In this document: positions 6,888 through 47,303 of the stretch, piece by piece
Layout of the letters: every line of letters starts with the position of its first letter
Position numbering within the stretch: the stretch's first letter is position 1
Origin: a virus
Direction: 5' to 3' (one strand)
Virus record (IMG/VR): IMGVR_UViG_3300042922_000982
Coordinates: 93,407-157,406 of that record
DNA length: 64,000 bases
Made by a program: the position numbers and the translations under genes
The notes under the pieces: model-generated
What the model was told of the DNA's origin: nothing
What the model saw: the letters and a program-made list of their open reading frames with translations, nothing else
Database searches by the model: none

Positions 6888-7256
6888 TCATGCGTAATCG
6901 ATCGCCACCACGCGATCGCCCCAGCGGCCCACGTTGCTGTCGTCGAGGTCCTCGGTGAGCCCCGCGAACATGGCCGGGCACCATACCCATCCCTCCGGCA
7001 GCGGCTCGGCGCGGGCCATCACGTTGAGCCACCCGCCGGGGGACGCCCAGAGGGTCGGGCACAGCCGGAAGTGCCCCCGGTGCTGGGCCCACACCGACGC
7101 CTCGTTCATGTTGGACAAGAGCCCCCACAGGAACGCGTACCACCCGGCCGTCACGATGGGCACCTTCACCACCACGCCCCCGATCAAGAGGGCATGGCGG
7201 GTGGCGCCGGTGGCGATCGCCAACCGGCCGGGCAAGCGGCGCGCCAGGCCCCTCAC
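6888..7256 (-). CDS. hypothetical protein
   Basis: 122 residues from a GTG that overlaps the upstream stop as GTGA, implying translational coupling. Mid-protein is Trp/aromatic-rich (WGLLSNMNEASVW, LCPTLWASPGGW) and it ends VGRWGDRVVAIDYA. Such an ending resembles phage proteins related to kinase-fold (phosphotransferase-like) families, where a terminal DGRxVAVDYG-type strand occurs, but no catalytic motif is visible. Function unknown. Confidence 0.75.
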   Translation of the reverse strand: MRGLARRLPGRLAIATGATRHALLIGGVVVKVPIVTAGWYAFLWGLLSNMNEASVWAQHRGHFRLCPTLWASPGGWLNVMARAEPLPEGWVWCPAMFAGLTEDLDDSNVGRWGDRVVAIDYA

Positions 7257-9163
7257 CACAGCAGGGGCGCCTCGGTGTCGCGCGGCACGGTAACGACCGC
7301 GTCGCGATCGCCGCGCCAATCGCCCACGCTCTTGGCGAGCCCGCCGCCGTGAATCTCGGCGTAGGTCAGCTGGGTCTCCTTCACCCCCTTGAACTCCTTG
7401 TGCGCCTTCACCTTGGCCGACATGTCGTAGGTGGTGCCCGGCTTGAGGCCGGTCGGCTTGGGGCTGAACCAGGAGGCCAAGTTGCCCTGCTCGTCGGTGA
7501 ACTTGTGCAGGTAGCTGGTGCCCCAGGCGTTGGTGATGGGGCGCGGCTCCTCGAGCAGCTTGAACTTGCCGGTCACGGGCGCGCCCGGCACGCCGATGTG
7601 GCCCGAGCGCTTCGGCGCGTTGACCATGCCGTTGGCGCGGGCGTCTTTCGCCGCCGTATTGGCCGCCTTGATGGCCGTGCGCTCCGCCTGCTCGGGGTCG
7701 ACGGGCGCGGGCCTCGGCGCCGCCGCCTTGAGGGGCCGCCCGGTGCCGACCAGCTTGTGCGCGAGCGCCACGTCGCGCGGCGACGGGTTCTGCTTGACCA
7801 GGTGGAAGCCGTCGTAGTCGAAGCCCGCGTCCATGAGGATGCGCCGCAGCCCCCTGGAGGTCTGCGGGAAGGTCAGATTGACGCCCAGGCCCCGCTTATT
7901 GGGGCCCTCGCCGTGCCGGACGGCGCCGTTGTAGCCGTCGTAGGTGCCGGGCGTGCCCATGTCGGGGCTGACGCCGTGATCGAGCCCGGTCACGCTGTAA
8001 CCCGCGTGATCGACCTGCGAATTGCCGATGATCACATGGCCGAACGGGCCCAGCACGACATGGTGGCCCTGCGTGCCGGGGCCGAGGTAGACGTGGTGGT
8101 CGTCGCCGAGCTTGACCACGTCGCCGGGGCTCAGGGGCGCCTGGGCGCCGTCCTTGCCCGCCTTGTCGTTGGCGATCGCCCCGGTGTGGGTGATGCCGCG
8201 CTGCCTCAACTCGTAGTCGACGTCCGGCGGCAGGGCCGGGCCTGCGGGTGGCTTGCTCATCTTCTTCGGTTCCCCGGGCGTTTTGTCCACCTTCACGGCC
8301 AGCCTTGGCTCGCGTTCGGTGGGCTTGGCGGTCGCCCGCTTCACTTTACCCTCCGCCGGGGCCTTCGCGCCAGATGCCTCGGGCTTGAGCGTGTGCGCCT
8401 TCGGCTTGACGAGCTTGGGCGCCTTGCCGGGCGCGGCGTCCTTCTTGACGGCCGCCTTCGGCGGCGCCTTGTCCGCCTTGACGGTCGCCTTCGGCTCGGG
8501 GGCGGGCTTGGGCGCCTGCTTCTTCACCGTGGCGATCGCCGCCTTGGTGGTCTTGGGCTTGGCGGCGGCCTTGGTCGCCTTGGGGGCCGCGCCCGCCTTC
8601 GCGTCCGGCTTGACCTTCTTGGCGGGGGCCTGCTTCGCCACGGCGGCCTTCGGCTTGGCGGCCGGTTTCACCGGGGTCGCCTTGACGGCGGGCTTCGGGG
8701 CCCTGACGGCGGGCTTGGGGCGGTTGACGCGCAGGTGATCGTGCGCCGCTTTCACCCAGGCCGCCGTGGCCGTGTCGACCGGGTGGGTCGTGTCGTTGGT
8801 GAAGGTGTACTTGTCGCGGGCCGTGGCGATCGCCGCCTTGATGTCGGGGATGGCCATGCCCTGGAAGTGCGCCCGGTGCTCCAGATAGACCTTGTCCGCG
8901 AGCGCCTTGAGCCGGGGGTCGGTCAGCCGATCAATGAAATCGCTGGCCTCCTTGGCCGTGATCGGCGCCGAGGCCGGGGCCGTCGCCGCGCGCGCCTCGA
9001 TAGCCATCTGGCTCGCCATGGCGGCCACCAGCGCCCGCTTGTTGACGTTGGCGGTGTGTGCGCGCACCTGCGCCACCTTGCCGCCCTTGGTGCGGCGCTG
9101 GTGCGCCCGCACGTTGACCAGGGCCTTGTTCAGCCCGTCGATCGCCTGATCCACCTGTCCCAT
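7253..9163 (-). CDS. tagged Ala/Lys-rich probable virion protein
   Basis: 636 residues. The ATG at 9163 follows AGGAGG with a 5-nt gap. Residues 18-54 carry the tag VRAHQRRTKGGKV...VNKRALV, which recurs in the adjacent genes 9192-10817 and 181-6567. Residues about 125-270 are histone-H1-like AKP repeats, probably a flexible DNA-binding or packing linker. The C-terminal third has folded segments (NLTFPQTSRGLRRILMDAGF; AYTDEQG-like region) without a known motif. Gene order after MuF suggests an internal head protein; no enzymatic site is seen. Confidence 0.85.
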   Translation of the reverse strand: MGQVDQAIDGLNKALVNVRAHQRRTKGGKVAQVRAHTANVNKRALVAAMASQMAIEARAATAPASAPITAKEASDFIDRLTDPRLKALADKVYLEHRAHFQGMAIPDIKAAIATARDKYTFTNDTTHPVDTATAAWVKAAHDHLRVNRPKPAVRAPKPAVKATPVKPAAKPKAAVAKQAPAKKVKPDAKAGAAPKATKAAAKPKTTKAAIATVKKQAPKPAPEPKATVKADKAPPKAAVKKDAAPGKAPKLVKPKAHTLKPEASGAKAPAEGKVKRATAKPTEREPRLAVKVDKTPGEPKKMSKPPAGPALPPDVDYELRQRGITHTGAIANDKAGKDGAQAPLSPGDVVKLGDDHHVYLGPGTQGHHVVLGPFGHVIIGNSQVDHAGYSVTGLDHGVSPDMGTPGTYDGYNGAVRHGEGPNKRGLGVNLTFPQTSRGLRRILMDAGFDYDGFHLVKQNPSPRDVALAHKLVGTGRPLKAAAPRPAPVDPEQAERTAIKAANTAAKDARANGMVNAPKRSGHIGVPGAPVTGKFKLLEEPRPITNAWGTSYLHKFTDEQGNLASWFSPKPTGLKPGTTYDMSAKVKAHKEFKGVKETQLTYAEIHGGGLAKSVGDWRGDRDAVVTVPRDTEAPLLW

Positions 9164-9191: not shown

Positions 9192-10817
9192 CTACTGCTC
9201 GTGGCCCTCCTGCGCGCGCTCGTGAAGGATGCTCGTGTACACGTCCGCCGCCGTACCCAGCGCGTGCAGCGGGTTGAGGCCGTGGCCCTTCTTGCCGTGC
9301 CCCTTGCCCTGTTTCTTGCCGTCGGCGTCGTGCGGCCCCTCGGGCAACTCGGGCGCCGTGCCGGGGAGGTCGTCCGCGTGATCGTGCGGATCCGAATCGT
9401 CGGCCACCGGGGGCTCGGCGCTCGCGCCGTCGGCCGCCGGGGCCTCGGCGGGTTCCGGGGCGCCCTCCTGGCCATCCTGGGCGCCCTCCGTGGGGGTGTC
9501 CGGGGCGGGGGTTGTGCCCTTCTTCTTGCCGCCCTGCTGCTCGCCGGTGTTGGCGTCCGTGACCGGCCATTCGCGCGTGGGGCGATCGCCGTCGCCCTCC
9601 GCGTCGGGCGCGGGGGCGCTGGGCGGCTCGGGCTCGGCCACCCCCGGCATGGGGGCCATGCGAGGCGCGTGCGGCGCCGCCGGAATGACCTCGTCGGCCG
9701 GAACCTGGGCCTGATCGGCCTCCGCCGTGGCGCGCTCCTCGTAATTGCCGACCCGCTCGGTGTGGGCGTCCTCGAGGGCCGCGTGCTGCTCGGTGGCGGT
9801 GGTGCCCGCAGGCGCCTTGGGGGGCGCCTTGCCCTCGGCCTTCGCCTTTTGGGCGGCCTTGTCGTGCTCGGCTTGCGCCTGCGTGGCCTCCTTGTCGGCG
9901 GCGGCGGCCAGGTCGGCCTTGGCCTTGACCTCGGCCTCGGTGGGCAGGGTGTTCACGGCCTGGCGAATGTCGGCCCAGGCGGTGTCCCACGCCGGGCCCT
10001 CGTGGCCGTTCGATTCGGTGTGGGCGTTGAAGTGGTGACCGAGGGCGATCGCCTCCTCTTTGGTGCTGGCCTGCATGGCCGCCACCTCGAAGTGGCCGGG
10101 GGTCTTGAGCTTGTCCGCCCCGCCGCGCACGAATCCGGGCACCGACGTGGGCGTCTTGGCCTCGCCGCTGCGCAGGCCGTCCGGGCTGGCCTGGCGCGCC
10201 TTGACCTTCACGCTGGAGCGCACGTCCGACGAGTCCCAGCCGCTCGCGGCCTGGCGGACCGCCTCGTACTGGCCGAGGACGTGGCCGTGCTCCGGGCTGC
10301 CCGGCGGCAGGGCGCGCAGGTGCGCGAGCATCTGGCTGCCCGCCTCGTGGAGGTGGTGCGGCGCGTCCGTGCCCATGGCCTGCTTGGAGGCCGCCTTCGG
10401 CTTGCCCTTGCCCTCGGCGCGCTTGGCGTTGGATGTTTTACCGGCGGCCGGGCCGGGGGCGGGGGCGTCGTGCGCCACCCGCTTGGCGCCGAGCTTGCTC
10501 AGGCGATCGGCGTGCGCGGCGCTGCCCGCGACGTGGAATTGGCCCCGGTGCGCGAAGATGGCCGCGCCGGGGGTCTTATTGGCGTGGGCTACCGCCTTTT
10601 TCTTGGAGGCGAAGGTGGTCACCTCGCCGCCCGCGCGCATCTTGGCGATCGCATCCACCATGGCCGTCTTGTTGACGGTCATCTGGTGCTGCTTGACCTG
10701 GATGACGTGCCCGTCTTTCGCGTGGGACTCGTGCGCCCGAACGTCGGTCATGCCCTTGACCATGTCCTCCAGCGCGGCGAGCGCCGTGTTCAGCTTGCCC
10801 CCGTTCGACGTGCCCAT
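9192..10817 (-). CDS. tagged probable virion protein sharing a domain with the MuF C-terminus
   Basis: 541 residues, starting just after the MuF stop. Residues 26-62 carry the tag VRAHESHAKDGHV...VNKTAMV. Residues about 150-285 (HHLHEAGSQMLAHLRALP through WADIRQAVNTL) align with the last 125 residues of the Nudix-MuF protein, showing duplication of one domain in neighbouring genes. The rest is acidic and Pro/Ala-rich, ending YTSILHERAQEGHEQ. Likely a head-associated or ejected protein; inferred from order and shared domains. Confidence 0.85.
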   Translation of the reverse strand: MGTSNGGKLNTALAALEDMVKGMTDVRAHESHAKDGHVIQVKQHQMTVNKTAMVDAIAKMRAGGEVTTFASKKKAVAHANKTPGAAIFAHRGQFHVAGSAAHADRLSKLGAKRVAHDAPAPGPAAGKTSNAKRAEGKGKPKAASKQAMGTDAPHHLHEAGSQMLAHLRALPPGSPEHGHVLGQYEAVRQAASGWDSSDVRSSVKVKARQASPDGLRSGEAKTPTSVPGFVRGGADKLKTPGHFEVAAMQASTKEEAIALGHHFNAHTESNGHEGPAWDTAWADIRQAVNTLPTEAEVKAKADLAAAADKEATQAQAEHDKAAQKAKAEGKAPPKAPAGTTATEQHAALEDAHTERVGNYEERATAEADQAQVPADEVIPAAPHAPRMAPMPGVAEPEPPSAPAPDAEGDGDRPTREWPVTDANTGEQQGGKKKGTTPAPDTPTEGAQDGQEGAPEPAEAPAADGASAEPPVADDSDPHDHADDLPGTAPELPEGPHDADGKKQGKGHGKKGHGLNPLHALGTAADVYTSILHERAQEGHEQ

Positions 10818-15153: not shown

Positions 15154-16809
15154 TTACGCGGGCTCCTCGCTGCCGTCGGGGTTCACCTTGGGCAAGCTGG
15201 GGGGCGCTGCGCCCTGCGGGGCGCCTTGATCGCCCTGGGCGGCCTGCTGGCCACCGGGGGCGCCTTGCTGGGCATCCTGGCCGCCGTCCTGGCCGCCTTG
15301 ATCGCCATCGTCGCCGTTCATCATGCCCTGCGCTTGCAGGTCGGCCTGCTTGTACATCTGCCACGCCTGGAACAGGGTCGGATCCTTGGGGATGTCGCCC
15401 CAGAATTGCTCCTCGGGGACGGCTTTCAGGTCGAATTCGGCGCGCACCTCGTTGACGGTCTTGATGCCCGCCTGCATGAACTTGGTGGCGGTGTCGACCT
15501 TGGTGCTGACCTGATCGGGGTCGAGGCCGGTCCAGGCGAATTCCAGCTCGCCTGAAGGGTCGAGCCGCGACATGATGTCGTCGTTGATGCCCGATTGCAG
15601 GCGGTTGAGCAGGGGGATCAGGCCCTTCGATTGGCTGTGAACGAGCGTGGCCTCGTTGTTGCCCTGGTTGCCGAGCCCGCCCGGCTCGCCCGCGCCCTTG
15701 GCGCCGAAGCCGATCTCCTCGCGATCGCACTGGTAGAGCGCGCAGATGATCGTGATCAAGAAATCGAGCCACTCGTGGAACTCCATGTCCTTGTTGCTGT
15801 TCTTGATGCTCGTCCAGTTGACGCCCTTGCCCTCCTTGAAGGCCATGACCGGCACGCGGTGGCTGTTGCCGACGCCGGAGACCATGGCGTTCCAGTAGCG
15901 CGTGAAGTTCTCAAGCTGCTCGGAGGTGTACTGGCCCATCAGGCTCAAGACGCCCTCGGGGATGTTGCCGTGGGTGAAGTAACGGCTGTTGTAGGTCATG
16001 GAATTCAAGAAGCCGGTCACGGTCTCGATCATGCCCTCGACCTCGCTGAAGCCGTAGCCGTTGGCCGTCAGGTCGGTGCGCGGGTTGCGGATCCAGTAGG
16101 CCAGCTCGCGATCGGTGAAATCGGCGTAGGGCTGGCCGTTGACGATCTGCACGAAGGCGATCTCGTCGGATTCGTCGTGGGGGACGCCGCCGTACCCGGC
16201 GCCGCGCATGCCGACCACCGACGCCATGTTGGCGTTCAAGAATCCGGCGTTGGCGCGGTAGCCGGGCGCGGCGATCTCGATGGTCGCGCCGTCGACCGCG
16301 AACCAATCGAACAGGGCGCCCTTGGCATCGTCGCGAATTTCGATGGCCATGGCGTCCAGGTTGAGCGTGTCGCGGACGATCGCGCGCAGGAACGGATCCA
16401 GGCTGGGCCGCTTGCCCTTCTCGGGGGGCGCCACGCCGCACTTGAGGATGGTCTCCTCGTAGGCGCGCATCAGCTTCTTGGCCGCCGGGCCCGTGCGCTG
16501 ATCGCGGTCCTTCATGCGCACCTCGAAGCCCATGTCGCCTTCGTAGTGCGGGCGGCGGGCGAAGCGGGCCACCTGGTTCTGGCGGGTCAGGATCACCGCG
16601 CCGATCGGCTGGCAGGCGCGGGCCACCTCGCGCAGGGTGTGCAGGCTGAGGCTGTTGGCCTGGCGCGGGCGCGTGCCCATCACCTGCCACATGACGTTGG
16701 TGGGGTCGTAGAGGTGCGCGTGCAGGGGGTTGATCGCGCCCGGCTGGGCCTGCGCCTGCGTCTGCGCCGCCTTGCCGCGTGCCAGCTTGTCCTTGTGCTT
16801 CTTCGCCAT
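15154..16809 (-). CDS. phage portal protein (HK97/phage_portal type)
   Basis: 551 residues. ATG at 16809 with GGAGG 4 nt upstream; an earlier start is disfavoured because it crosses the terminator. Portal hallmarks include ACQPIGAVILTRQNQVARF, a mid-region ELAYWIRNPRTD, the clip-like SRYFTHGNIPEGVLSL, and NKDMEFHEWLDFLITIICALY. The C-terminal 100 residues are Gln/Gly/Asp-rich (DGGQDAQQGAPGGQQ). Portals form the dodecameric head vertex through which DNA is packaged and ejected. TerL is 10 kb upstream and MuF 2.5 kb downstream in transcription order. Confidence 0.93.
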   Translation of the reverse strand: MAKKHKDKLARGKAAQTQAQAQPGAINPLHAHLYDPTNVMWQVMGTRPRQANSLSLHTLREVARACQPIGAVILTRQNQVARFARRPHYEGDMGFEVRMKDRDQRTGPAAKKLMRAYEETILKCGVAPPEKGKRPSLDPFLRAIVRDTLNLDAMAIEIRDDAKGALFDWFAVDGATIEIAAPGYRANAGFLNANMASVVGMRGAGYGGVPHDESDEIAFVQIVNGQPYADFTDRELAYWIRNPRTDLTANGYGFSEVEGMIETVTGFLNSMTYNSRYFTHGNIPEGVLSLMGQYTSEQLENFTRYWNAMVSGVGNSHRVPVMAFKEGKGVNWTSIKNSNKDMEFHEWLDFLITIICALYQCDREEIGFGAKGAGEPGGLGNQGNNEATLVHSQSKGLIPLLNRLQSGINDDIMSRLDPSGELEFAWTGLDPDQVSTKVDTATKFMQAGIKTVNEVRAEFDLKAVPEEQFWGDIPKDPTLFQAWQMYKQADLQAQGMMNGDDGDQGGQDGGQDAQQGAPGGQQAAQGDQGAPQGAAPPSLPKVNPDGSEEPA

Positions 16810-16831
16810 GGGGCCTCCGGTGATCAAAACG

Positions 16832-16871
16832 GCTGGGGGTGGGAATGCCAAGCAAGCACCCCACCCCCAGC
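16832..16871 (-). terminator. hairpin terminator before the portal gene
   Basis: A perfect 12-bp stem (GCTGGGGGTGGG with its complement) and 16-nt loop, followed on the minus strand by CGTTTTGATC. It ends the operon containing the 394-aa protein. No distinct promoter is obvious between it and the portal start only 23 nt away, so partial read-through is likely. Confidence 0.7.
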
Positions 16872-19995: not shown

Positions 19996-20223
19996 CTACC
20001 TCCGGATCAAGCGAATGGCCAGGGCGGCGATATCGGCGCCGTAGGCCGCCAGGCTCAGCACGGTGTCTTTGTCCAGGGGGGCGTCGGCGCGGGCCATGGC
20101 GTCCGCGCGGGCGGCCACCGCCTTGGCGGCCGAGGCGATGCTGTTGAGCACCCCGCGCTGGGCGATCGTCGCGTTTCGGGCGTCCTCGGCGCGGGTGGTG
20201 GGGTCGTGGGGGTTACTGGGCAC
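19996..20223 (-). CDS. small hypothetical protein
   Basis: 75 residues from a GTG at 20223, overlapping the upstream HTH gene by 11 nt. It is Ala-rich and helical (SIASAAKAVAARADAMARA) with a hydrophobic end (LAAYGADIAALAIRLIRR) that could be a weak membrane or packing helix. Unknown. Confidence 0.6.
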   Translation of the reverse strand: MPSNPHDPTTRAEDARNATIAQRGVLNSIASAAKAVAARADAMARADAPLDKDTVLSLAAYGADIAALAIRLIRR

Positions 20224-20785
20224 GGGCGGCCTCCTTGCGGCGTTGCATGAGGATGTCGGACACGGCCGTGGCGCACACGAAGGTCGCCTGGCCGCACTTG
20301 TGGGCGCGAATCTGGCCGCGCCGGATGCGGCAGTGAAGCCCGCTCTTGGTGTAGCCCAGCCGCTTGGCCGCCTCGGCGATCGGCAGCGCGGGCCACGGGG
20401 GCGGGGCGTACTCGGCGCGCAACTTGTCCGCGTCGGCGGGGTCGAGGAACAGGAACTTGCCCTCGCCCGTGAGCGTGAAGCCGCGCCGCTTGATCAGGCC
20501 GTTGAGCCCCCACGGATTCACACCCAGCTCGCGCGCCAGGTGCCGCACCGGGACGCCGTGGCGGTTGGCCTTGATGCCGTAGCGATCGCAGGCGCCGTAG
20601 AGCGCGCGCAGGTTGACCACGATGCCCCAGCGCTCGGCGAGCGTCTTGAGGATCACGCTGTAGTGCTCCAGCCCGTACACATCGGTCAGGTAGTCGCGGG
20701 CCTCCTGGCACCACGGCGCGCGCTTGCCCGTAGACTTGGGCCCGATCGCGCGCGGGCGGCTCGGGATGTTGTCCTTAACCGGCAT
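20213..20785 (-). CDS. tandem DNA-binding paralogue 3
   Basis: 190 residues. The third of three adjacent paralogues in transcription order. The common plan is an N-terminal module YLTDVYGLEHYSVILK...LYGACDRYGIKANRHG, a middle HTH-like VRHLARELGVNPWGLNGLI, and a C-terminal excisionase/MerR-like module IAEAAKRLGYTKSGLHCRI followed by VCATAVSDILMQR. Probably sequence-specific DNA binding. Starts overlap stops, so the three are co-translated. Confidence 0.75.
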   Translation of the reverse strand: MPVKDNIPSRPRAIGPKSTGKRAPWCQEARDYLTDVYGLEHYSVILKTLAERWGIVVNLRALYGACDRYGIKANRHGVPVRHLARELGVNPWGLNGLIKRRGFTLTGEGKFLFLDPADADKLRAEYAPPPWPALPIAEAAKRLGYTKSGLHCRIRRGQIRAHKCGQATFVCATAVSDILMQRRKEAARAQ

Positions 20786-21416
20786 GGGATACCTCCTTGG
20801 CCTTCGCCCGCTTGCGCCGCATGTGCTCGCGGCCGATCTCGCGCGTGCGCGCCCGCTGAATTTCGGGATCGCGCTCGGCGTACGCCCGCTGGGCCGCGCG
20901 GTTGGCGATCGCCTTGTCGGACACCGCCGTGGCGCACACCACCCAGGCGAAGCCGACCTTCTGCCCCTTGAGCCGCCCCTGCCGCAGCATCAAGATGATC
21001 GCGGAGCGGGTGTAGCCCAGGCGGCGGGCGGCCTCTTCGGCCGTCATGTGCGGGTAGGTGGGTCGCGCGTACTTGGCGCGCAACATCTCGGCGACCTCGT
21101 GGGTGACGAAGCGGTACTTGCCGCTCCCCCGGACCTCGTGCCCATGGCGACCCAGCCAGTTGCGCAGCGCCGGGGCGGCCACCCCCAACTCGGCTGCGAG
21201 GTCGGCGACGCAGGGGCCGTGACGGCCGTGCGCCGTGATGCCGAACCGGCGGGCCGCGCCCTCGACCGAATCGCGCGTGGCGCGGATGCCGTAGAGCTGG
21301 CGCAGCGATCGCGCGATGTCCACGGCCAGGCGCAATCCGTAATGCTCGATCAGGTAGTCCTTGGCCTGCGGGTGATCATCCCACATGACGTGGCCCTTGG
21401 GGCGGTTGCCGGGCAT
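20775..21416 (-). CDS. tandem DNA-binding paralogue 2
   Basis: 213 residues; its ATG overlaps the preceding stop as TGATG. Same architecture as its neighbours: YLIEHYGLRLAVDIARSL, AARRFGITAHGRHG, VADLAAELGVAAPALRNWL, AARRLGYTRSAIILMLR, and the shared VCATAVSD. It differs by an additional basic tail (RTREIGREHMRRKRAKAK). Three predicted HTH-like units per protein is unusual. Confidence 0.75.
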   Translation of the reverse strand: MPGNRPKGHVMWDDHPQAKDYLIEHYGLRLAVDIARSLRQLYGIRATRDSVEGAARRFGITAHGRHGPCVADLAAELGVAAPALRNWLGRHGHEVRGSGKYRFVTHEVAEMLRAKYARPTYPHMTAEEAARRLGYTRSAIILMLRQGRLKGQKVGFAWVVCATAVSDKAIANRAAQRAYAERDPEIQRARTREIGREHMRRKRAKAKEVSHAG

Positions 21417-22027
21417 CAGCGGGCCTCCTTTCCTGCGATCGCCAGCTCGCGCTGCCGGGCCATGAGGATGTTCGACACGCCCGTCGCGCAGATGTGCACC
21501 GTGCGCCCCACCCGCGCGGCCTTCAACTCGCCGCGCGCCACCATGTTCATGATCGCGTCGCGGTGGTAGTGCAGCCGCTTGGCGGCCTCCTTGAGCGGGA
21601 TGGTCGCGAAGGCGGGCTTGCGGTAGTGCGCGCGCACCTGCTCGGCCAACTCGTCCGGAATGATGCGGTGGCGCCGTTCGCTGCGCGTGGCGGCGGCCGG
21701 GCCCCCGAGCTTGAGCAGCGTGCGGTTCATGCACGGCACCGAAATGCCGCACTCGCGGGCCAGCATGGCGCCCGTCAGGCCGTAGCGCCGCGACTTGATG
21801 CCGTAGCGTTGCGCCACGCCGTTGAGCGAGGCCGTCTCGACGTGCAGGCCCCAGCGGGCCTTGATCTCGGCGCACAACTCCGGGCCGGGCCGCGTGCCGT
21901 ACTGGTCGATCACGAAATCGAGCAATCCGGGCACGCTGCGCCACCGGACGTAGGCGCAGGGCTTGCGCTTCTTCTTGGCGGCGGGCTCGCGCGTCTTTCG
22001 GGCGGGCTTGGCGGGGTTGGGGATCAC
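21416..22027 (-). CDS. tandem DNA-binding paralogue 1
   Basis: 203 residues from a GTG at 22027 overlapping the upstream stop (GTGA) and preceded by AGGAG. A basic N-terminus is followed by the shared plan: LLDFVIDQYGTRPGPEL, AQRYGIKSRRYGLTG, LARECGISVPCMNRTLL, AAKRLHYHRDAIMNMV, ICATGVSNILMARQ. Divergence between the three copies suggests different DNA targets rather than recent duplication. Confidence 0.75.
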   Translation of the reverse strand: MIPNPAKPARKTREPAAKKKRKPCAYVRWRSVPGLLDFVIDQYGTRPGPELCAEIKARWGLHVETASLNGVAQRYGIKSRRYGLTGAMLARECGISVPCMNRTLLKLGGPAAATRSERRHRIIPDELAEQVRAHYRKPAFATIPLKEAAKRLHYHRDAIMNMVARGELKAARVGRTVHICATGVSNILMARQRELAIAGKEAR

Positions 22028-22512
22028 TTGGCGGTTCTCCTCTCGTACAGGTGCGCGGCGCCAAACGGGACGCACGCGCTGGCGTTGCGGCTGCACATGT
22101 AGCCGGTGTACGCCTCGGCGTAAGGGGTTGAATGGACACAGGTGGCGCACGGGGCCGCCACCTCGGGCTCGGCCTGCGCCTCGGCGGCGGCGATCGCCTC
22201 CATCTCGGCGAGGGACGGGGGCGGCGGGCCCACGTCGCGCAACTTCTTCCCGCGCGGCTCGTAGCGGGGGTCGGACACGTCGAGGACGTAGTACCCCGGC
22301 ACGCACGTCTCGCAGCGGTTCGCCCCGTAGTAGGGCGGCCAGAACCGCACGGCGCACTCCACGCACGAGACGCGCGTGCCGGGCGGCGGCGCACCCGGCG
22401 ATCGCCGCCGCCGGATCGCCTTCCCGCCCGGATTCTTCAGCGACGGCTTCGTCAGGGCCACGCCCCGGCCGATCGCCGCCGCCACGATGTAGTCCTTCGC
22501 GTCGCGCAGCAT
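22024..22512 (-). CDS. zinc-ribbon protein with tail shared with the coiled-coil protein
   Basis: 162 residues. A ribbon CVECAVRFWPPYYGANRCETC sits at about 50-70. The C-terminal 35 residues (CATCVHSTPYAEAYTGYMCS, then NASACVPFGAAHLYE) match the end of the neighbouring 917-aa protein (CGSCANARVNADAYTGFEC, then NASACGPRGAALLHE). The gene starts 4 nt after that protein's stop. Function unknown; a shared metal-binding tail suggests a shared partner. Confidence 0.75.
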   Translation of the reverse strand: MLRDAKDYIVAAAIGRGVALTKPSLKNPGGKAIRRRRSPGAPPPGTRVSCVECAVRFWPPYYGANRCETCVPGYYVLDVSDPRYEPRGKKLRDVGPPPPSLAEMEAIAAAEAQAEPEVAAPCATCVHSTPYAEAYTGYMCSRNASACVPFGAAHLYERRTAK

Positions 22513-22515: not shown

Positions 22516-25269
22516 CTACCGCCGCGTCACGCTCGGGGCGGGCGTGCCCGGCTCGTGGAGCAGGGCCGCCCCGCGCGGGCCGCACGCGCTCGCGTTGCGC
22601 AGGCACTCGAACCCGGTATAGGCGTCCGCGTTGACCCTGGCATTCGCGCAGGAGCCGCATTTCTCCACGGCGGGGTCGCCGGAGGACTGACGCCTCGGCC
22701 CGGCGGGCGCGCCGGGCTTGCTGGCCATCGTGGGGGCGTTGGCGGGGGTGTCTCGCAGCGGGGTGGTCTTGGGGTTCTCCCGATCGGCGATGCGGCAGGG
22801 CGTGCAGATGCGCTGGTTGGCGCTGCCCTTGCGCTCGAAGTCCTGCTCGCAGCGCAGGCACGGCGGCAGCGCCCGCTCCTTCTCGTCGGCCGCGCGGCAC
22901 TCCGGGCAGACCAGCTCGCGGCCGACCGGGGTGTAGGGCTTCTGGCAATCGCGGCGCTTGCAATTGCGCGGATCGAGCACCCGCTTGTAATTGTCCGCCG
23001 GGGCGCGCTTCGCCTGCACGGCGGGCACCACCGCCTCCACGACCGGATCCGGCGCGGCGATCGCCTTGTCACGGGCGGCGGCCTCCGCCGTGATCGTGTC
23101 GCGCGCCCGGCAGGCCAAGCACGGGCCGGGCGCCGCGACCGAGTTCTCGCACGTCGGCGTCGCGCACCCGTACCGCACCGGCTCCTTCGGCTCGGGGGCC
23201 GCCTTCGGCTCGGGATCGGGCGTCACCTTCGCGGGGGCCTCGGTGACCTGATCCTCCAGGCACGGGCCGCACACCGTCCGGCCGTCCGACGGCTGGGCGG
23301 GGAACGAGCCGCCGCACATGGCGCACTCAATCGCCACGAACACCTCGTACGCGGCGGGGAGCTTGCCGTCGGCTACCGCGCGGTCGTACGCCTCGGCCTT
23401 CGGCAGGTATTTTTTGAGCGCCCGGCCCTGCGCCTCGGCGTTGATCTCCAGGTTGGACACCTCGGTCTTGAGCGCGTCACGCTCGGCGTTCGCCCGGCGG
23501 ATGCCCTCCTCGGTGGCCTCCACCCGGTCGGTCAGCACCCGGTACGCCTGGGACACGTTGTCGGCGATCGCCCCCTCGGCGCGCCACACCAGGCTGGGGT
23601 CGATGCGATCGATGGCGCCGCCCACCGCCGAGAGCGTCTGCGTGGCCTCCCGCCCCCGGTGCACCCCGGCCTCGAGGACCTGGATGACGTTGAGCACGTT
23701 GTCGGCGAACGAGGTCGTGTTGTCCCAGGGCTGCTGCGTGTTGGCGATGACGTAGGCGCGCACGCGGTCCTGATCGGCACCCAGCCGGGCCAGTTGCCCG
23801 CCCGCGACGATCGCCTTGATGTTGGCGAGGAAGCCCTGCTCGTCGTCCCACACGGCGCCCAACTCGCGGAACCAAGCCGACACCGCCTCGATCGCCTCGA
23901 TGCGCTCGGATAGGTACGCCTCGTCGGCCTCCACGGCGCGCAGCTTGACGTTGATCTCACGGGTGAGGCCCTCTAGCTCGGCGATCTTGGCCTCGGTTTC
24001 CGGGCTGGCGCCCGACGCCTTGAGCGCGGCCACCTGGCCGGACATGCGCTCGTAGTCGGCCGTTAGCTCGGTGTAGCCGATGATCAAGGTGTGCAGGTTG
24101 TCCCATAGTTCCTGCCCCTCGTCGTAGAACCCGGCCAGGCGCATGGAGGCCGCCACGTCGTTTCCGGCGTTGTGCAGCCGCTTGATGGTCTCCTCCTGGG
24201 CCAGGACCCGCTCGGCGTTGTGCTTGCCCTCGTCGCGGTAGCGCGCGCACTGAATCTTGAGGCTCTCCACGATCGGGAGCTTAGTGACGGGGTCGAGCTG
24301 CCCCTCGGGGTTCTCGGCGATCGCCTTGTGCGCGTCCGCCAACTGGAAGGTCAGGTCCTCGTTGAGCCCCTCCACCTCGCGCAGCCGCACCTTGGCGCGC
24401 TCGCACTGGTCGACGACCGCGTGGTAGGCCCGCGTCTGCTCGGCGAGCGCGCGCTCAAGATCGTCGCGCTTGGCCTGGCTCTCCTTGAGCGATTCGCGCA
24501 GCCCGTCCTCGCGGGTGATCGGGCCGGGGAAGCCGCCCTCCACGAGCCCCGCGAGGCGATCGCCGTGCGCCTGCTTGGCCCGCTCGGCCTCCAACTGGGC
24601 CTGCACGTCGGATAGCTCCATGCGCAGGTGCGCCAGGTCCTTGGCGCCCGGCGTGTGCCCCCAAATTTGCAGGCGCATATCGAGGTCCTTGCACTCGCGC
24701 CGCGCGGCCTCGAGATCCTGGTGCAGCCGGGTGATGGCCGCCACCGCCGCCGCCGTGGGCGTGACGCCCAGGTTGTCCACGAGCCCGGCGCCTGCGATCG
24801 CCCGGTGAATGGCCGCCGTGATGCCGGGCAGGGCCGCCTCCTCGGCCGCGCGCAACTCGTCGTGGCAAATGGCCAGCTCATGGCGCAGGAGCGCGATCGC
24901 CTCGGTCTCGTCGGCGGCCAGGGCCGCGCCCGCGATCGCCAGCTCGTCGATCAGGCTGCGCAGGGCGTGCAGGGTGGCCTCGATGGGCCCCTCGGCGGTG
25001 GCGTCGGGCGCCCATGGGATGTCGTGCGCCGCGCAGAGCGCCCCGATCCGCTTGAATCCCTCGTCGAGGGTGGCGATCGTCTGGCGGGCGGCGGTGGTGA
25101 GGGAATCGTCGGGCTTGTGGCGCGCGTTGCGGCGCAGCACCTCGACCTCTTTTTCACGCAGGGCCAGCTCGGCGGTGAGATCCGCGATCGATTGGGCCTG
25201 ATGGACGGCGAGATCACGCCAGCGGGGCGTGAGGACGCCCTCGCGATCGGTAGGGACCAGATGGGACAT
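22516..25269 (-). CDS. large coiled-coil protein with C-terminal zinc-ribbon array
   Basis: 917 residues from the ATG at 25269. Residues about 20-640 are predominantly long helical, heptad-like segments (DLTAELALREKEVEVLRR, LHQDLEAARRECKDLDMR, LKESQAKRDDLERALAEQ). From about 650 onward there are four or five CxxC units (CAMCGGS...CGPC; CENSVAAPGPCLAC; CKRRDCQK...CPEC; CLRCEQDF...CTPC; CGSCANA...). Size and position between terminase and portal suggest a structural or scaffold-like role, but it does not look like a tape measure. I do not recognise a family. Confidence 0.8.
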   Translation of the reverse strand: MSHLVPTDREGVLTPRWRDLAVHQAQSIADLTAELALREKEVEVLRRNARHKPDDSLTTAARQTIATLDEGFKRIGALCAAHDIPWAPDATAEGPIEATLHALRSLIDELAIAGAALAADETEAIALLRHELAICHDELRAAEEAALPGITAAIHRAIAGAGLVDNLGVTPTAAAVAAITRLHQDLEAARRECKDLDMRLQIWGHTPGAKDLAHLRMELSDVQAQLEAERAKQAHGDRLAGLVEGGFPGPITREDGLRESLKESQAKRDDLERALAEQTRAYHAVVDQCERAKVRLREVEGLNEDLTFQLADAHKAIAENPEGQLDPVTKLPIVESLKIQCARYRDEGKHNAERVLAQEETIKRLHNAGNDVAASMRLAGFYDEGQELWDNLHTLIIGYTELTADYERMSGQVAALKASGASPETEAKIAELEGLTREINVKLRAVEADEAYLSERIEAIEAVSAWFRELGAVWDDEQGFLANIKAIVAGGQLARLGADQDRVRAYVIANTQQPWDNTTSFADNVLNVIQVLEAGVHRGREATQTLSAVGGAIDRIDPSLVWRAEGAIADNVSQAYRVLTDRVEATEEGIRRANAERDALKTEVSNLEINAEAQGRALKKYLPKAEAYDRAVADGKLPAAYEVFVAIECAMCGGSFPAQPSDGRTVCGPCLEDQVTEAPAKVTPDPEPKAAPEPKEPVRYGCATPTCENSVAAPGPCLACRARDTITAEAAARDKAIAAPDPVVEAVVPAVQAKRAPADNYKRVLDPRNCKRRDCQKPYTPVGRELVCPECRAADEKERALPPCLRCEQDFERKGSANQRICTPCRIADRENPKTTPLRDTPANAPTMASKPGAPAGPRRQSSGDPAVEKCGSCANARVNADAYTGFECLRNASACGPRGAALLHEPGTPAPSVTRR

Positions 25270-25385
25270 GCTTGGATGGGGCTCCTGCGACGGTGCCCCG
25301 GTTGCTACGCGGGACACAGGGGGAGGGGACAACGCCCGGCGATCGCGGAGGTGGGCCGCGATGGGGGCCGGGCAACGGGGTCAAC

Positions 25386-26606: not shown

Positions 26607-26930
26607 CTACAGGCGGATCTGGATGGGCAAGTTGCACGCCGGGCACGGCGCCACCTTGGCGGTCACCTCGACCGTGACGTAGCCCTTGTGGTGCGGGCAA
26701 TACACGTCGCGGGTGCGGGGCATCGCCGTGGCGGGCGCCTCCTCGCGCCGCTTGGCGATCGCCCGGCGGGTGTAGTCGACCATCATGTCGGCGGTGTGCT
26801 GCGCGTCGAGCCGCACGGGGTCCATGGCCGGGCCCGGCGGCAGGCCCTCGATGACGTCCGCGCCGCCCTGCTCGTAGCCGATCACGAACGCGTCTAGTTG
26901 ATCCAGGGTGTAGTCGGGGGGAATTTGCAT
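26607..26930 (-). CDS. small protein carrying the terminase zinc-ribbon tail
   Basis: 107 residues. The N-terminal 70 residues are unrelated to terminase (YTLDQLDAFVIGYEQGG, MMVDYTRRAIAKRR). The last 36 residues, RTRDVYCPHHKGYV then APCPACNLPIQIRL, are a near copy of the C-terminus of the adjacent terminase (NTRDVWCPHHKGHV then APCPVCDLPIQSRL). A CPHH...CPxC ribbon is implied. It may bind the same partner as terminase or regulate it. Confidence 0.8.
   Translation of the reverse strand: MQIPPDYTLDQLDAFVIGYEQGGADVIEGLPPGPAMDPVRLDAQHTADMMVDYTRRAIAKRREEAPATAMPRTRDVYCPHHKGYVTVEVTAKVAPCPACNLPIQIRL
26608..26717 (-). repeat. direct repeat copy A of terminase tail segment
   Basis: About 110 bp encoding the ribbon of the 107-aa protein. 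The second copy is at about 26956-27066 inside the terminase gene. The nucleotide match is clear by eye, including the shared stretch GGGCACGGCGCCACCTT. Confidence 0.7.
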
Positions 26931-26954
26931 GGGGGTCTCCTGCTATGCCGGGCC

Positions 26955-28970
26955 CTAGAGCCGGGACTGGATGGGCAAGTCGCACACGGGGCACGGCGCC
27001 ACCTTCTCGGTCGCGTCGATCTCGACGTGCCCCTTGTGGTGGGGGCACCACACGTCGCGGGTGTTCTTGGGGCGATCGTCTTGCGGGTGGCGATCGCCGT
27101 CTTGCACCGAGCCCGCCCCGCGCGGCAGGTCGAAGAACACGGACGCGCCTCCCGAGCGGGTGATCGCCTGGTGCGCGACCACCATGACCGCATCGAGCGC
27201 GTCGTCGGTCTGCACCGGGCCCGCCGTGGGGGCGTGGGCTGCGATCAGGCGCTTCTTTTTGGTGTTGCGGCCCTTGAGGCTCTTGAGCGCGGCCATCATT
27301 TCGCGTTTGAGCAGCATGATCGAGTAGATCGGCCACTTGGTCTCGTCGTCGTCCCAGCCGTCTTTCTCAAGCTCCTTGTCGGCCATGGCCCACAATTCCG
27401 GCGGCGTCTCGGGCAGGGCCAGGCGCTCCTCGAACACCAGCTGCTTGAAGTTGGTGGCCAGCTCGTCGTTGAAGACGTCCGTGAAGGTCGTCTTGATCGC
27501 GTTGATGCCCATGTCCTCGAGGTCCTGGATCATCTGGATGCTGCTGAATTGGTCGAAGGATACCTGCGTCACCGTGACCCGCTTGGCGATCCGCTTGATG
27601 AACGGCAGCAGCTCCTTGGTGTAACCCACCTCGCGGTTGAACGCGCGAATCAGGTCGATCACGACCACGCCCTTGCGGACGTGCCCGACGGCCACCACGA
27701 GGCGATCGCCGCCTTCGGAGGTGTCGACGTGCACCACGCGCTCGTACTTGCGCGCGTCCTTGACGAACGCCTCTTCAAGCTCCCGATCCGAGATGGTGCC
27801 GAGCGGCATGGCCGCCGTGCGCCCGGTCAGGGCGGTGTAGAGCTTGACCATGGCCTCGAATTGGCTCGCCACGTTGGGCAGCAGGTTCTTGGCGCCGGTG
27901 AAGAATTGCGCGCCGTACTCGGTCTCGGCGACGTCGGGGTCCTTGCGGTACTCGGCGGCGTAGTCGTCTTTCGTCTCGCCGGGGATCATCTCCCACGAGG
28001 CCAGCTGCACCACGAGCGCGTTCTCGAACGTGCCCGCGATCGCCTGGCAGTACAACTCGTAGAGCACGCCGTCGGCCTCGGCGGGCGAGGACAGGATCAG
28101 CACGATGCCCTTCCCCTTGGCGCGGGTCTTGACCGCGCTTCGGATGGCGGTGTAGAGCGCGCGATCCGATCGAGGCCCCGACGTCTTCTCGGCGAAGGCG
28201 ATCTCGTCGTGGATGTAAACGACCGTGTCACGGCCACGGCCCGACTTGGAGTTAGACGAGCCCCGCTCCGCCCACAGGTGCTTGCCGAACTTCATCATGC
28301 CTTTGATCGGCGGGCTATACCGGCCGTTGAACCACTTGACGCGCTCGATGAAGCTGACGAACGCATCGAAGAACTCGCCCGCCTGCGCGGCCGAGGTGGC
28401 CACGTTCTGGATGCGCAGCGCCTTCAAGGCGGCCAGGTTGAACAGGGCGTGCGGGTTCGGCTGACTCAGGATGCGGTGGCCCTGGTGCCCGGCCGTGCCT
28501 GCCGCGAAGGTGGTCTTACCGCCGCCACGGCCGATGATCAGCACGATCGTCCGGGGCTCCGAGCTATTGTCGTCCAGGCTCTCGAAGACCTGGGCGTACG
28601 GGTTTTTGCGGCTCTTCAGGTACGCCCAATCGGCCACCTCGTCGTACCAGTAGACGCCCGCGTCGTCCTGCTCGACGCAATGGCCCATGGTGCGCATCAG
28701 CTTCTCGCCGTCGAAGCCCAAGCACATGGTCGCGGCATCGAACGGGTAGCGCGCCAGGCGCGTGTCGAGCGGCCGGTGATTGGCGGCGTTGTCGATCACC
28801 TTGGCGAGCAGCCGCTGGCGCGGGCGCAGGATCATGTGCGCCCAGTCCTCGTGCTCCAGAAACACGTCGAGCGGCACGACCTCACCCGATTGATCTGTGC
28901 CCTCTTCGAGCATCGAGATCATGCGGGTGTAGGCGTCGTCCGCCAGGATGGTCTTGCTCGCCACCGCCAT
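26955..28970 (-). CDS. terminase large subunit (TerL) with C-terminal zinc ribbon
   Basis: 671 residues. ATPase domain: Walker A IIGRGGGKTTFAAG near 145, Walker B VVYIHDEIAFAEK near 255, coupling motif LILSSPAEADG near 295. RNase-H-like nuclease domain: VVHVDTSEGGDRLVVAVGHV, SFDQFSSIQMIQDLEDMG and TDDALDAVMVVAHQA supply the acidic residues. TerL docks on the portal, translocates DNA into the head and cuts concatemers. The last 36 residues (CPHHKGHV...CPVCDLPIQ) are a ribbon not usual in TerL and duplicated in the next gene. Confidence 0.95.
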   Translation of the reverse strand: MAVASKTILADDAYTRMISMLEEGTDQSGEVVPLDVFLEHEDWAHMILRPRQRLLAKVIDNAANHRPLDTRLARYPFDAATMCLGFDGEKLMRTMGHCVEQDDAGVYWYDEVADWAYLKSRKNPYAQVFESLDDNSSEPRTIVLIIGRGGGKTTFAAGTAGHQGHRILSQPNPHALFNLAALKALRIQNVATSAAQAGEFFDAFVSFIERVKWFNGRYSPPIKGMMKFGKHLWAERGSSNSKSGRGRDTVVYIHDEIAFAEKTSGPRSDRALYTAIRSAVKTRAKGKGIVLILSSPAEADGVLYELYCQAIAGTFENALVVQLASWEMIPGETKDDYAAEYRKDPDVAETEYGAQFFTGAKNLLPNVASQFEAMVKLYTALTGRTAAMPLGTISDRELEEAFVKDARKYERVVHVDTSEGGDRLVVAVGHVRKGVVVIDLIRAFNREVGYTKELLPFIKRIAKRVTVTQVSFDQFSSIQMIQDLEDMGINAIKTTFTDVFNDELATNFKQLVFEERLALPETPPELWAMADKELEKDGWDDDETKWPIYSIMLLKREMMAALKSLKGRNTKKKRLIAAHAPTAGPVQTDDALDAVMVVAHQAITRSGGASVFFDLPRGAGSVQDGDRHPQDDRPKNTRDVWCPHHKGHVEIDATEKVAPCPVCDLPIQSRL
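26956..27066 (-). repeat. direct repeat copy B of terminase tail segment
   Basis: The counterpart of 26608-26717, about 350 bp away in the same orientation. It encodes the terminase C-terminal ribbon. Confidence 0.7.
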
Positions 28971-29766: not shown

Positions 29767-30465
29767 TTAGCTCCCTTGGCTCTGGAGGCGGGCGAGTTCC
29801 TTGGCGATCGCCCGCGCGTTTTCGGGACAGACGGTGTTGATGGCGCTCTGCACGTTGGTCATGAACCGTTCGAGCGCCTGGTAGTTGTAGAAGGTGCCGA
29901 CCACGTTGTTGTACTTGTCCACGATGTCGGACACGGCCTTCTCGGCTTTCAGTGCCTCGCCCTCCAGCCGGGCGACGTCGCCGTAGCCCACCTGTAGCAG
30001 CGCGGGCTTGTGGCGCACCGTGATCTCGGACACCTCCTCGGCGCCGCAGCGCGTGCACAATCCGGGGTACTGGTGCCCGTCGGGGCTGCCGAGCACAAAG
30101 TAGCGCGCGTGGCGGGCATCGAGCTCGATGCGCTTGGCGATCGCCTTCACGCGGCCGATCGCGTTGGTCAGCTCGGTTATCATGTCCAGGCCGCCGACCA
30201 GGGCGCCGACGCGGGTGGTGCTATCCGCCTGGGGCGGCAAGCCGCCTGCGGGCATGGCGCGCCCCACGCTACCCGCCACCTTGGCCGCGATCGCCGCCTC
30301 GGCCTTCTTGCGCAGCGCGATCGCCGTCGGCTTCGACACGCCGGTCACGGCCTTGACCTCCTCGAGCGTCACCTTGCGCCCGATCATGGCCGCCGCCTCG
30401 AGCAAGTCGATCACGGCGGGCAGTTGTTTGTCCTTCGGCAGCTTGCCGGGGCTAGTTTCCGACAC
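29767..30465 (-). CDS. HTH protein, candidate small terminase subunit
   Basis: 232 residues from a GTG at 30465, overlapping the upstream gene by 14 nt. Residues 20-60 form a helix-turn-helix (VIDLLEAAAMIGRKVTLEEV, VTGVSKPTAIALRKKAE). A CxxC pair (GLCTRCGAEEV) and a long helical region follow (GEALKAEKAVSDIVDKYNN). It lies three genes upstream of TerL, where small terminase subunits that recognise the packaging site usually occur. The assignment is inferred from HTH plus position only. Confidence 0.6.
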   Translation of the reverse strand: MSETSPGKLPKDKQLPAVIDLLEAAAMIGRKVTLEEVKAVTGVSKPTAIALRKKAEAAIAAKVAGSVGRAMPAGGLPPQADSTTRVGALVGGLDMITELTNAIGRVKAIAKRIELDARHARYFVLGSPDGHQYPGLCTRCGAEEVSEITVRHKPALLQVGYGDVARLEGEALKAEKAVSDIVDKYNNVVGTFYNYQALERFMTNVQSAINTVCPENARAIAKELARLQSQGS

Positions 30466-31333
30466 GGGCGGCCTCCTTTCGGCGTGGGCGGGCGTAGATG
30501 GGGCGGTTGCACAGCGCGGCGGGGCGATCGGCGCCGCCGTGGTGCTTGGCGTACTGGTGGCAGGCCGGGCAGCGGCCCCGCACGAAGCCCTTCCCGGTGC
30601 GATCGCACGGCGGGTTCACGCACACGGCGCCCCGGCGGGCGATCGCCTCGCGCCAGGCGACAAGCTCCTGCGCCGTGCGATCGCGATCGTGCTGCTCGTG
30701 GAATCGGGTGCACCCGGCGCAGCGCCCGTAGCGCGTCCGCCCCGCGATCGTCGGCCCGGCGCACACGATGCACGCGGGTCGGACGCCCGCGAGCCTGCTC
30801 TCCAGCGCGGCGATCGCCTCGCGCGTGATGTCCTCGCCATGCTTGCGCCGGTACACGTAGCACCTCACGCAGCGGCCCTTGCGCGGCTTCTCGGTGGGGG
30901 CCGTGCAGTTGACGCACTCGGACACGATCACCCGTTTCTGGCGCGGGCCCGTTTTCTCGTAGCCGGGCCCCCAGCCGCGCCGCTCGACGCCGTCGGTCGA
31001 GCCGCGCTGGTAGCCCGTGGGCGGGCGATCGACGCTGCGCAGGCGCCGGTACTCGTAGCACGCATGGCAGCGGCCCTTGCGGGGCTGCTCGGTGAGGCGC
31101 TTGCAGTTGCCGCAACAGACGGCGGGCTTGGGGGGGACGCCACTCGCGCGGCGCCGGGGCGCCCGGTCCGGATCGCGCTCGGTGCCGTAGCGGCGTATGT
31201 GGTTGTAGCACCTCACGCACCGCCCGGCGACCAGCTTGACGATCGCCCGGCCGTCGGGGCAGATGGCGTTGGCGCACACGCCGGGTGGGATCGGCTTCCG
31301 GCCGCCGCGCTGCGGGGCGAACACGCTACTCAT
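30452..31333 (-). CDS. five-fold zinc-ribbon repeat protein
   Basis: 293 residues with five tandem units of the type CxxC-(8-14)-GRCxxCYxYRR: CANAICPDG...GRCVRCYNHIRR; CCGNCKRL...GRCHACYEYRR; CVNCTAPT...GRCVRCYVYRR; CIVCAGPT...GRCAGCTRF; CVNPPCDR...GRCPACHQY. Each unit should bind one zinc, giving an array of about 50-60-residue spacing. Basic residues around the ribbons suggest nucleic-acid binding. No such repeat family is known to me by name. Confidence 0.8.
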   Translation of the reverse strand: MSSVFAPQRGGRKPIPPGVCANAICPDGRAIVKLVAGRCVRCYNHIRRYGTERDPDRAPRRRASGVPPKPAVCCGNCKRLTEQPRKGRCHACYEYRRLRSVDRPPTGYQRGSTDGVERRGWGPGYEKTGPRQKRVIVSECVNCTAPTEKPRKGRCVRCYVYRRKHGEDITREAIAALESRLAGVRPACIVCAGPTIAGRTRYGRCAGCTRFHEQHDRDRTAQELVAWREAIARRGAVCVNPPCDRTGKGFVRGRCPACHQYAKHHGGADRPAALCNRPIYARPRRKEAARVGN

Positions 31334-31436
31334 GCGACACCTCGCGCGCGCCGGTGAACGCGCAGACGGCCAGGTGGGCGATCGCGTAGACGGCCACGGC
31401 CCCCAAAGACACGATCAACGGGTGGGCCTGGATCAC
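31326..31436 (-). CDS. single-span membrane miniprotein (36 aa)
   Basis: GTG start overlapping the previous stop (GTGA) and stop overlapping the next start. The sequence has one hydrophobic span (LIVSLGAVAVYAIAHLAVCA) and a short charged tail GAREVSHE. Perfect packing between two real genes supports it. Function unknown. Confidence 0.6.
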   Translation of the reverse strand: MIQAHPLIVSLGAVAVYAIAHLAVCAFTGAREVSHE

Positions 31437-31798
31437 GACGCGCCCTCCGCCGTGCCCGCAGGCGCGGGCATCTCGGCCGTGGTGGCGTCAATCACCGCCA
31501 TGGCGTCATCGAAGGTGAGCTTGTAGCCGCAATTCGGGCAGCATCCGGGCTTGCCGCCGCCGAAGGTCAGCCGGATGGCGCGGTTGCGCAGCGACCCCGA
31601 CACCACGATCAAGCCCTTGGCCGCCAGGCTCTTGAGGTGGTAGTCCACGGTGCTGGTGCTGCGCATGCCGAGCGCCTGGCCGATCTCGCGCACGGTGGGC
31701 GGGTAGCCCTCGGTGCTGAAGTACTCCTGAATGAACGCGAGCACGTCCAGGTGGCGGTCGGTCTGCGCCCGGTTGCGGGTCTTGACGGGGAGGGTCAT
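31433..31798 (-). CDS. LexA-type winged-helix protein with zinc ribbon
   Basis: 121 residues. Residues 15-80 closely follow the LexA DNA-binding domain: LDVLAFIQEYFSTEGYPPTV, REIGQALGMRSTSTVDYHL, KSLAAKGLIVVSGSLRNRAI. The LexA autopeptidase domain is absent; instead a short C-terminus has CCPNCGYKLT. It may bind SOS-box-like operators as a competitor of host LexA or regulate phage genes. Start chosen at 31798 with a GAGGAATCCGCC leader. Confidence 0.8.
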   Translation of the reverse strand: MTLPVKTRNRAQTDRHLDVLAFIQEYFSTEGYPPTVREIGQALGMRSTSTVDYHLKSLAAKGLIVVSGSLRNRAIRLTFGGGKPGCCPNCGYKLTFDDAMAVIDATTAEMPAPAGTAEGAS

Positions 31799-31815
31799 GG
31801 CGGATTCCTCGGGTT

Positions 31816-32160
31816 CTAGAGGCGGAAGGACAACCGGCGGTCGGTGCCGAGCAGGGGGTGGCGGGTTTCGAGCAGCATGGCCGGGCGATCGCCGAGCTTC
31901 CAGCCGCCGTAGGACGGCGTGGGGTAGGTGTGCGCCACGCGGATGTCCTCGTACGCGAACCAGACGCGGTAGGCCGTCGGGACGTGGCGCGTGCGCGGGA
32001 TCATGATCTTGCCGCAGGGCACGTAGTACGTCTCGGTGTGGGCGGGCACCACGTCGCGGTAGGTCACGACCGCCTCCACCGGCTCGATGTCTCGGCCGCA
32101 CCCGCTCAGGGCCAACAGGGCAAGCTGGGCGATCGCCCAGCGCGCGACGACCCTACCCAC
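31816..32160 (-). CDS. lipoprotein
   Basis: 114 residues from a GTG at 32160, overlapping the upstream lipoprotein gene by 8 nt. Signal peptide with lipobox LLALSGC at residues 15-21, so the mature protein would start at Cys21. The mature part is beta-rich (VEAVVTYRDVVPAHTETYYV, MIPRTRHVPTAYRVWFAYED). It resembles 35928-36377 in its VVPxxTE...PCG..IPRTR pattern. Likely periplasm-facing in a Gram-negative-type envelope. Confidence 0.7.
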   Translation of the reverse strand: MGRVVARWAIAQLALLALSGCGRDIEPVEAVVTYRDVVPAHTETYYVPCGKIMIPRTRHVPTAYRVWFAYEDIRVAHTYPTPSYGGWKLGDRPAMLLETRHPLLGTDRRLSFRL

Positions 32161-46307: not shown

Positions 46308-47303
46308 TCAAGCAGGGCGCGCGGCCTCCTTGTGGCGCTCGGCCACCAGGGCCATGTCCATGGCGTCGCTCATGGGCGTGTCGTGGAAGACGACCCGCTT
46401 GGCCGCGCGGGTGGTGACCCGCTCGATCTCGGCGAACGACAAGCCCGCGAGCTTGGGGTCGTAGAGGTCGCGCGCCTTGTCCGTCGGCGCCATGGCGAGC
46501 AAGTCCATGGCCACCCGCGTGAAGTAGGCCCACGCCGCGTCGGGCGTGGGGGCCGGGAAGTAGAGCGCCTCATCGAAGCGGCGCCACACGGCCGGGTCGA
46601 CCACCGTGTCGAGGTTGGTGGTCGCCAGGATCAAGCTGTGCCCGTCGTAGGCGTCGAGCATGGCCAAGAGGCTGTTGGTGACCCGCTTGATCTCGCCTAG
46701 CTCGGTGTGCGTGCCGCTGCCCGCGCGATTCGATGCGATCGCGTCGAACTCGTCGAAGAGCAAGACGCAGCGGGGCGCCTTATCCAGAAAGTCGAAAATC
46801 TTCCGCAAGTTGCGCGCCGTGCCGCCCAGGTGGCTCTCGAGGATGGCGTCCATGCGCGCCACCAGGAACGGCAGGCCCATCTCCTTGGCGATCGCCTCGG
46901 CGGTGGCCGTCTTGCCCGTGCCCGGCGGGCCCATCATGATCAGGCGGTTGGCGGGGCGGAACCCGTGATCGAGGTAGGTCTTCGGGTCGGTGTTCTCCTC
47001 GATCACGCGCGTCACCACCTCGATGGCCGCCGCATCGAGCGCCACGTCCGCGAGCCCCCGCCGGGTGACGCGCCGTTCGAGCAAGTCGAGCGTCCCGTCC
47101 TTCGGCAATAGCTGCATGAGCTGCCGGTCCTCGTCCATAAACCCGCACTTCTCGGCATGCGAGAGCGCCTGGGTCAGCCGCTTGGCGAGCCCCGTGCCCG
47201 CGCACTCGCCCGCCAGCCGCTTGATCGTGGCGGCGACCGCCTTGCGATCGCCGCGCAGGCCCTCGGTGGCGAGGGCGAGGGCGCTGTTGTCGTCGATGGG
47301 CAT
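46308..47303 (-). CDS. AAA+ ATPase
   Basis: 331 residues. Walker A GPPGTGKTATAEAIAKEMG near 126, Walker B CVLLFDEFDAIAS near 180, sensor 1 LATTNLD near 222, and WRRFDE as arginine finger. The FtsH/spastin-like (classic AAA) arrangement suggests a protein-remodelling hexamer. The N-terminal 90 residues are helical and may bind substrate. Its start is directly after the stop of a membrane protein gene, so the two probably work together. Confidence 0.85.
   Translation of the reverse strand: MPIDDNSALALATEGLRGDRKAVAATIKRLAGECAGTGLAKRLTQALSHAEKCGFMDEDRQLMQLLPKDGTLDLLERRVTRRGLADVALDAAAIEVVTRVIEENTDPKTYLDHGFRPANRLIMMGPPGTGKTATAEAIAKEMGLPFLVARMDAILESHLGGTARNLRKIFDFLDKAPRCVLLFDEFDAIASNRAGSGTHTELGEIKRVTNSLLAMLDAYDGHSLILATTNLDTVVDPAVWRRFDEALYFPAPTPDAAWAYFTRVAMDLLAMAPTDKARDLYDPKLAGLSFAEIERVTTRAAKRVVFHDTPMSDAMDMALVAERHKEAARPA

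Follow-up and report, generated by a model that had tools for sequence, protein, structure and literature searches.

Terminase gene and its downstream neighbor

The window analyzed here is a stretch of 64,000 nucleotides, positions 93407-157406 of a 157,406-base uncultured viral record, with a GC content of 69%. A codon-usage gene call gave 62 genes, all 62 on the minus strand, which places the 107-aa gene immediately downstream of the terminase gene terL, with a gap of 24 bp between them. The recognizable genes of the window encode a helicase-like giant protein, an SPO1-like portal, a thymidylate synthase, an SSB, a helicase loader, and two adenine methylases, and neither Rfam families nor tRNAs were found in it. 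The features at and around the locus are as follows.

26955..28970, minus strand: terminase large subunit TerL, 671 aa (phrog_2 match; Rhodococcus, Thermus, and Synechococcus phage terminases; alignment)
26607..26930, minus strand: 107-aa gene with its own N-terminus of two predicted helices and a second putative zinc ribbon at the C-terminus (coding score, 45.6; AGGAG upstream of the ATG)
26955..27063, minus strand: repeat copy 1, the last terL codons, encoding the putative zinc ribbon TRDVWCPHHKGHVEIDATEKVAPCPVCDLPIQSRL, and the TAG stop (repeat search, self-BLAST, and codon alignment)
26607..26715, minus strand: repeat copy 2, the end of the 107-aa gene, encoding the putative zinc ribbon TRDVYCPHHKGYVTVEVTAKVAPCPACNLPIQIRL, and the TAG stop
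15154..16851, minus strand: portal protein, suggested as a partner in an earlier note on this DNA (phrog_12, E 9e-45; tblastn, 33-36% identity to SPO1-like portals)

TerL matches the phrog_2 terminase profile (E 1.1e-15) over residues 97-606, a region that spans the ATPase and the nuclease. It carries the Walker A motif GRGGGKT (147-153), DE at 255-256, and the RNase H-like nuclease aspartates 416, 473, and 589/590, and the residues G147, G151, K152, D255, E256, D416, D473, D589, and D590 are invariant in the TerL alignment. Judged by its sequence, the protein is a genuine, divergent terminase, and it ends in a 36-residue C-x2-H ... C-x2-C segment. By their codon-usage scores (277 for terL and 46 for the 107-aa gene) and the Shine-Dalgarno-like AGGA/AGGAG upstream of each, both look like real genes.

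In the window there are 114 occurrences of the cyanobacterial palindrome HIP1 (GCGATCGC; PMC4390886), compared with 6.3 expected, and in the whole record there are 191. By local identity, Synechococcus phage S-CBS4 and contigs of cyanobacterial genomes are among the relatives of TerL, which, together with the HIP1 excess, makes a cyanobacterial host likely but not proven. The density of HIP1 is clearly higher over the first 36 kb of the window than over the last 28 kb, which suggests an uneven genome history. This HIP1-rich phage also carries paired D12 adenine methyltransferase genes (51536-52819 and 53370-54698, 47% identical), for which the GATC core within HIP1 is a possible target.

A ribbon-coding direct repeat at both gene ends

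The two gene ends share a direct repeat in which 90 of 109 bases are identical. Self-BLAST recovers it over 109 bp at 82.6% identity (112 bits, E 1e-24), compared with a chance level of 36-43 bits for the best off-diagonal match in five Markov shuffles. In each gene the block opens at CACCCGCGACGTG, stays in frame, and runs through to the TAG stop codon. The earlier note had claimed about 110 bp of nucleotide similarity between TerL and a neighboring gene, and the alignment confirms it; its description of the two ends as almost identical is overstated for the proteins, where 25 of 35 aligned residues (71%) are identical. All four putative zinc ligands (C-x2-H and C-x2-C) are retained in both copies, although with 10 of 35 residues changed this retention is not significant alone (P ~0.24, hypergeometric estimate). 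A protein search of the 157-kb record with the tail (E up to 10) found no ribbon copies beyond these two.

Among the codons of the same meaning in both copies, stop included, 21 of 26 are identical versus 15.2 expected at saturation (P 0.01), an expectation derived from codon usage in the phage itself (GC3 91%). The flanks show no similarity 3' of the stop (P 0.78-0.96) and at most a marginal trace upstream of the repeat (P 0.02-0.14). The unrelated flanks and a codon identity above saturation argue for the copying of a single segment and against the independent acquisition of two ribbons, and they agree with the recent recombination that the earlier note had offered as one option. We are highly confident that the ends of TerL and the 107-aa protein represent a real, fairly recent local duplication of a ribbon-type module, a judgment that covers the duplication and the ribbon jointly. 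The Nei-Gojobori estimates are dN 0.19 and dS 0.26, with a ratio of 0.73, a rough value from only 35 codons. Since the duplication, changes outside the ribbon core have accumulated under little constraint, and this near-neutral divergence suggests that the copies are either weakly constrained or adapting to different partners.

The C-x2-H and C-x2-C knuckles lie 18 residues apart and follow the zinc-ribbon pattern of two CPxC/H-type knuckles separated by a beta hairpin. AlphaFold2 predicts a small four-strand ribbon in both proteins. In TerL, the strands span residues 637-642, 647-652, 657-659, and 666-668 with a pLDDT of about 63-77 and block means of 74-77 over roughly the last 35 residues, the best part of a model that is poor overall (mean pLDDT 49, 9 sequences); in the 107-aa protein, whose model rests on 2 sequences, the ribbon is likewise the best-predicted part, with a pLDDT of 82-89. 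The claim of a C-terminal zinc ribbon on TerL, made in the earlier note, is thus supported by the motif and the models, with zinc binding predicted. The net charge of the ribbon is -1 on TerL and +3 on the 107-aa protein.

The 107-aa tail matches the Pfam family PF22289 with E 0.0016 and 18.8 bits, under the gathering cutoff of 27.4. The Foldseek search with the models gave no match under E 0.001, and the structural matches in BFVD include stand-alone viral ribbons of ~40 residues and LysW, none of them significant by E-value. The VIA-align rows span helices, not the ribbon, and the PDB sequence search with the ribbon returned just chance-level matches to single knuckles. Because the support from known families is weak, with the Pfam match below the cutoff and the structural matches nonsignificant, we infer zinc binding from the motif and the predicted fold.

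Relatives of TerL and a second neighbor pair

Alignment scans and database matches gave 172 loci of TerL relatives with 106 distinct complete C-termini. None of the 106 has CxxC or CxxH in its last 110 residues, the relatives all being distant (about 22-35% identity); the TerL relatives found in bacterial genomes lack the tail. The charge of the last 50 residues is +7 to +14 in about half of the C-termini examined and -2 in the present TerL. The absence of the tail from all relatives examined, which reach up to ~35% local identity, makes it appear a lineage-specific addition; with all sampled relatives distant, the tail may have a longer history in an unsampled clade. No relative emerged when IMG/VR was scanned for exact peptides of TerL, the 107-aa protein, or the tail pair, or when bacterial genomes were scanned for those of the tail pair, and a search for closer phages via the AAA ATPase gene (46308-47303) yielded none. 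The TerL open frames extend to ~1041 codons in some relatives, compared with ~613 in others, possibly owing to inteins.

The 107-aa protein has no detectable relatives in phages, plasmids, or IMG/VR. Twenty records of portal or TerL relatives lack the 107-aa gene, and TerL itself is matched in only two of them, both derived from the TerL scan. The same gene pair, which the earlier note proposed to look for in related phages, was therefore not recovered among the distant relatives sampled. These TerL homologues without the tail and the unconserved small gene, the pattern that the earlier note had named as refuting its proposal, count against a conserved packaging role. They speak against a general packaging function, not against a lineage-restricted one, and a role of the tail and the 107-aa gene limited to this lineage is possible.

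A parallel case lies further downstream.

22516..25332, minus strand: the large gene of the pair, encoding 938 aa; its C-terminal module is Cys-rich and ends in EKCGSCANARVNADAYTGFECLRNASACGPRGAALLHE (self-comparison)
22024..22512, minus strand: the small gene downstream, encoding 162 aa, with the same Cys module at its end, APCATCVHSTPYAEAYTGYMCSRNASACVPFGAAHLYE (blastp match to the C-terminus of the upstream neighbor, E 1e-9)

The layout is the same as for terL and the 107-aa gene, a large gene followed by a small one that shares its C-terminal Cys module. At least one zinc-knuckle-like motif pair is present in 10 of the 62 called genes, and other local duplications include the adenine methylase pair and a repeat inside a Cys-rich protein (30452-31333). 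Given these local duplications and the abundance of Cys modules in this phage, the event at terL is less surprising.

An HTH-like protein encoded at 29767-30465 is, judged by its sequence, a possible TerS. The protein encoded at 31433-32101 combines a LexA-type DNA-binding domain with a C-terminal CCPNCGYKL zinc ribbon, and the adjacent HTH_17-like proteins at 20213-20785 and about 20780-21300 look like a tandem duplication. Three large proteins (181-6621, 7253-9163, and 9192-10817) have a common N-terminal motif of ~45 residues (VRAHQRRTKGGKVAQVRAHTANVNK...), possibly a targeting or processing signal.

Origin and possible function of the shared ribbon

The reading that we consider probable as a whole is that local duplication shuffles modules in this Cys-module-rich phage and that the ribbon on TerL and on the 107-aa protein is a docking domain. 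A short C-terminal ribbon-coding stretch, stop included, was copied between the ends of two neighboring genes, leaving the packaging ATPase and an otherwise unrelated 107-aa protein with one module. TerL would be the likely recipient, a direction of copying that we infer from the relatives of TerL lacking the tail, and the source may have been the end of the 107-aa gene or a lost common source. On TerL, the ribbon would be a contact domain on a linker, ~45 residues past the last nuclease aspartate, neither catalytic nor strongly basic, which could bind a protein or nucleic-acid partner. The docking role taken by itself is tentative, and we put it somewhat short of an even chance. It is improbable, in our view, that the added ribbon docks TerL while the ribbon protein of the next gene is a built-in competitor or adaptor, with exchange between neighboring gene ends recurrently wiring proteins to a common partner, as the two pairs might suggest.

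The alternative that survives best, though we regard it as rather unlikely, is a neutral accident in which illegitimate recombination joined an existing ribbon-coding end to terL and the tail is tolerated but idle. A dN/dS of about 0.7, the lack of conservation of the tail across TerL homologues, and the several further local duplications in the window all fit such an event. Both copies are nevertheless open, with ligands and core residues kept, and in each AlphaFold2 model no part is predicted better than the ribbon, although neither observation is strong for a repeat so short and young.

The 107-aa protein could also be a trans-acting regulator, its ribbon taking the site of the TerL tail on the portal, TerS, or DNA and so limiting or timing the docking of the motor. 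Both proteins do carry the same ribbon, and their genes are adjacent in one co-oriented run, each with a Shine-Dalgarno-like site; however, the 107-aa gene is without a detectable relative in all the collections searched, including the 20 related records, the TerL homologues have no tail (0/106), and the ribbons diverged near-neutrally. Competition of the two for one partner is a guess drawn solely from their likeness, and we consider the regulator doubtful. A role of the repeat as DNA rather than protein, such as a packaging recognition site or a recombination hot spot, would suit a direct repeat of 109 bp that lies among the packaging genes but is very improbable. We did not adopt it as the leading explanation because the block stays in frame and ends exactly at both stop codons; the block also has no Rfam match, no minus-strand terminator, and just two copies in 157 kb by the protein search.

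If the shared module is functional, as the docking reading would have it, the TerL of this phage would bear a zinc ribbon and the two proteins would be a natural pair to probe what the TerL C-terminus touches; if the tail is neutral, the locus is still a clear example of a module passing between neighboring genes of a phage. We found no description of a TerL with a C-terminal zinc ribbon in the open-license literature.

Compared with the tailed-phage terminases of phrog_2, the present TerL is alike in its ATPase and RNase H-like nuclease, with the catalytic residues in place, whereas the relatives terminate shortly beyond the nuclease with a tail that contains no Cys and is, in about half of the relatives, strongly basic, and the present protein ends in the predicted ribbon. 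The DmmA-like C-terminal domain (PF22289) shows a weak, sub-cutoff profile likeness to the 107-aa tail and is a lead only. In herpesviruses, pUL28 and pUL33 have zinc-binding elements within the packaging terminase complex (PMC9611059). Those zinc fingers belong to the TerS-type subunit and to the interface between pUL28 and pUL33, whereas the present ribbon is on TerL, and the likeness is a precedent only for contacts made through zinc elements. Bacillus phage G, a single large phage, has a lineage-specific expansion of about 35 ribbon copies, suggested to be transcription factors or structural DNA-binding proteins (PMC7824862). There, one ribbon family is present in many copies, whereas the present phage has two copies, one of them fused to TerL; phage G is thus a precedent for the lineage-specific multiplication of ribbons.
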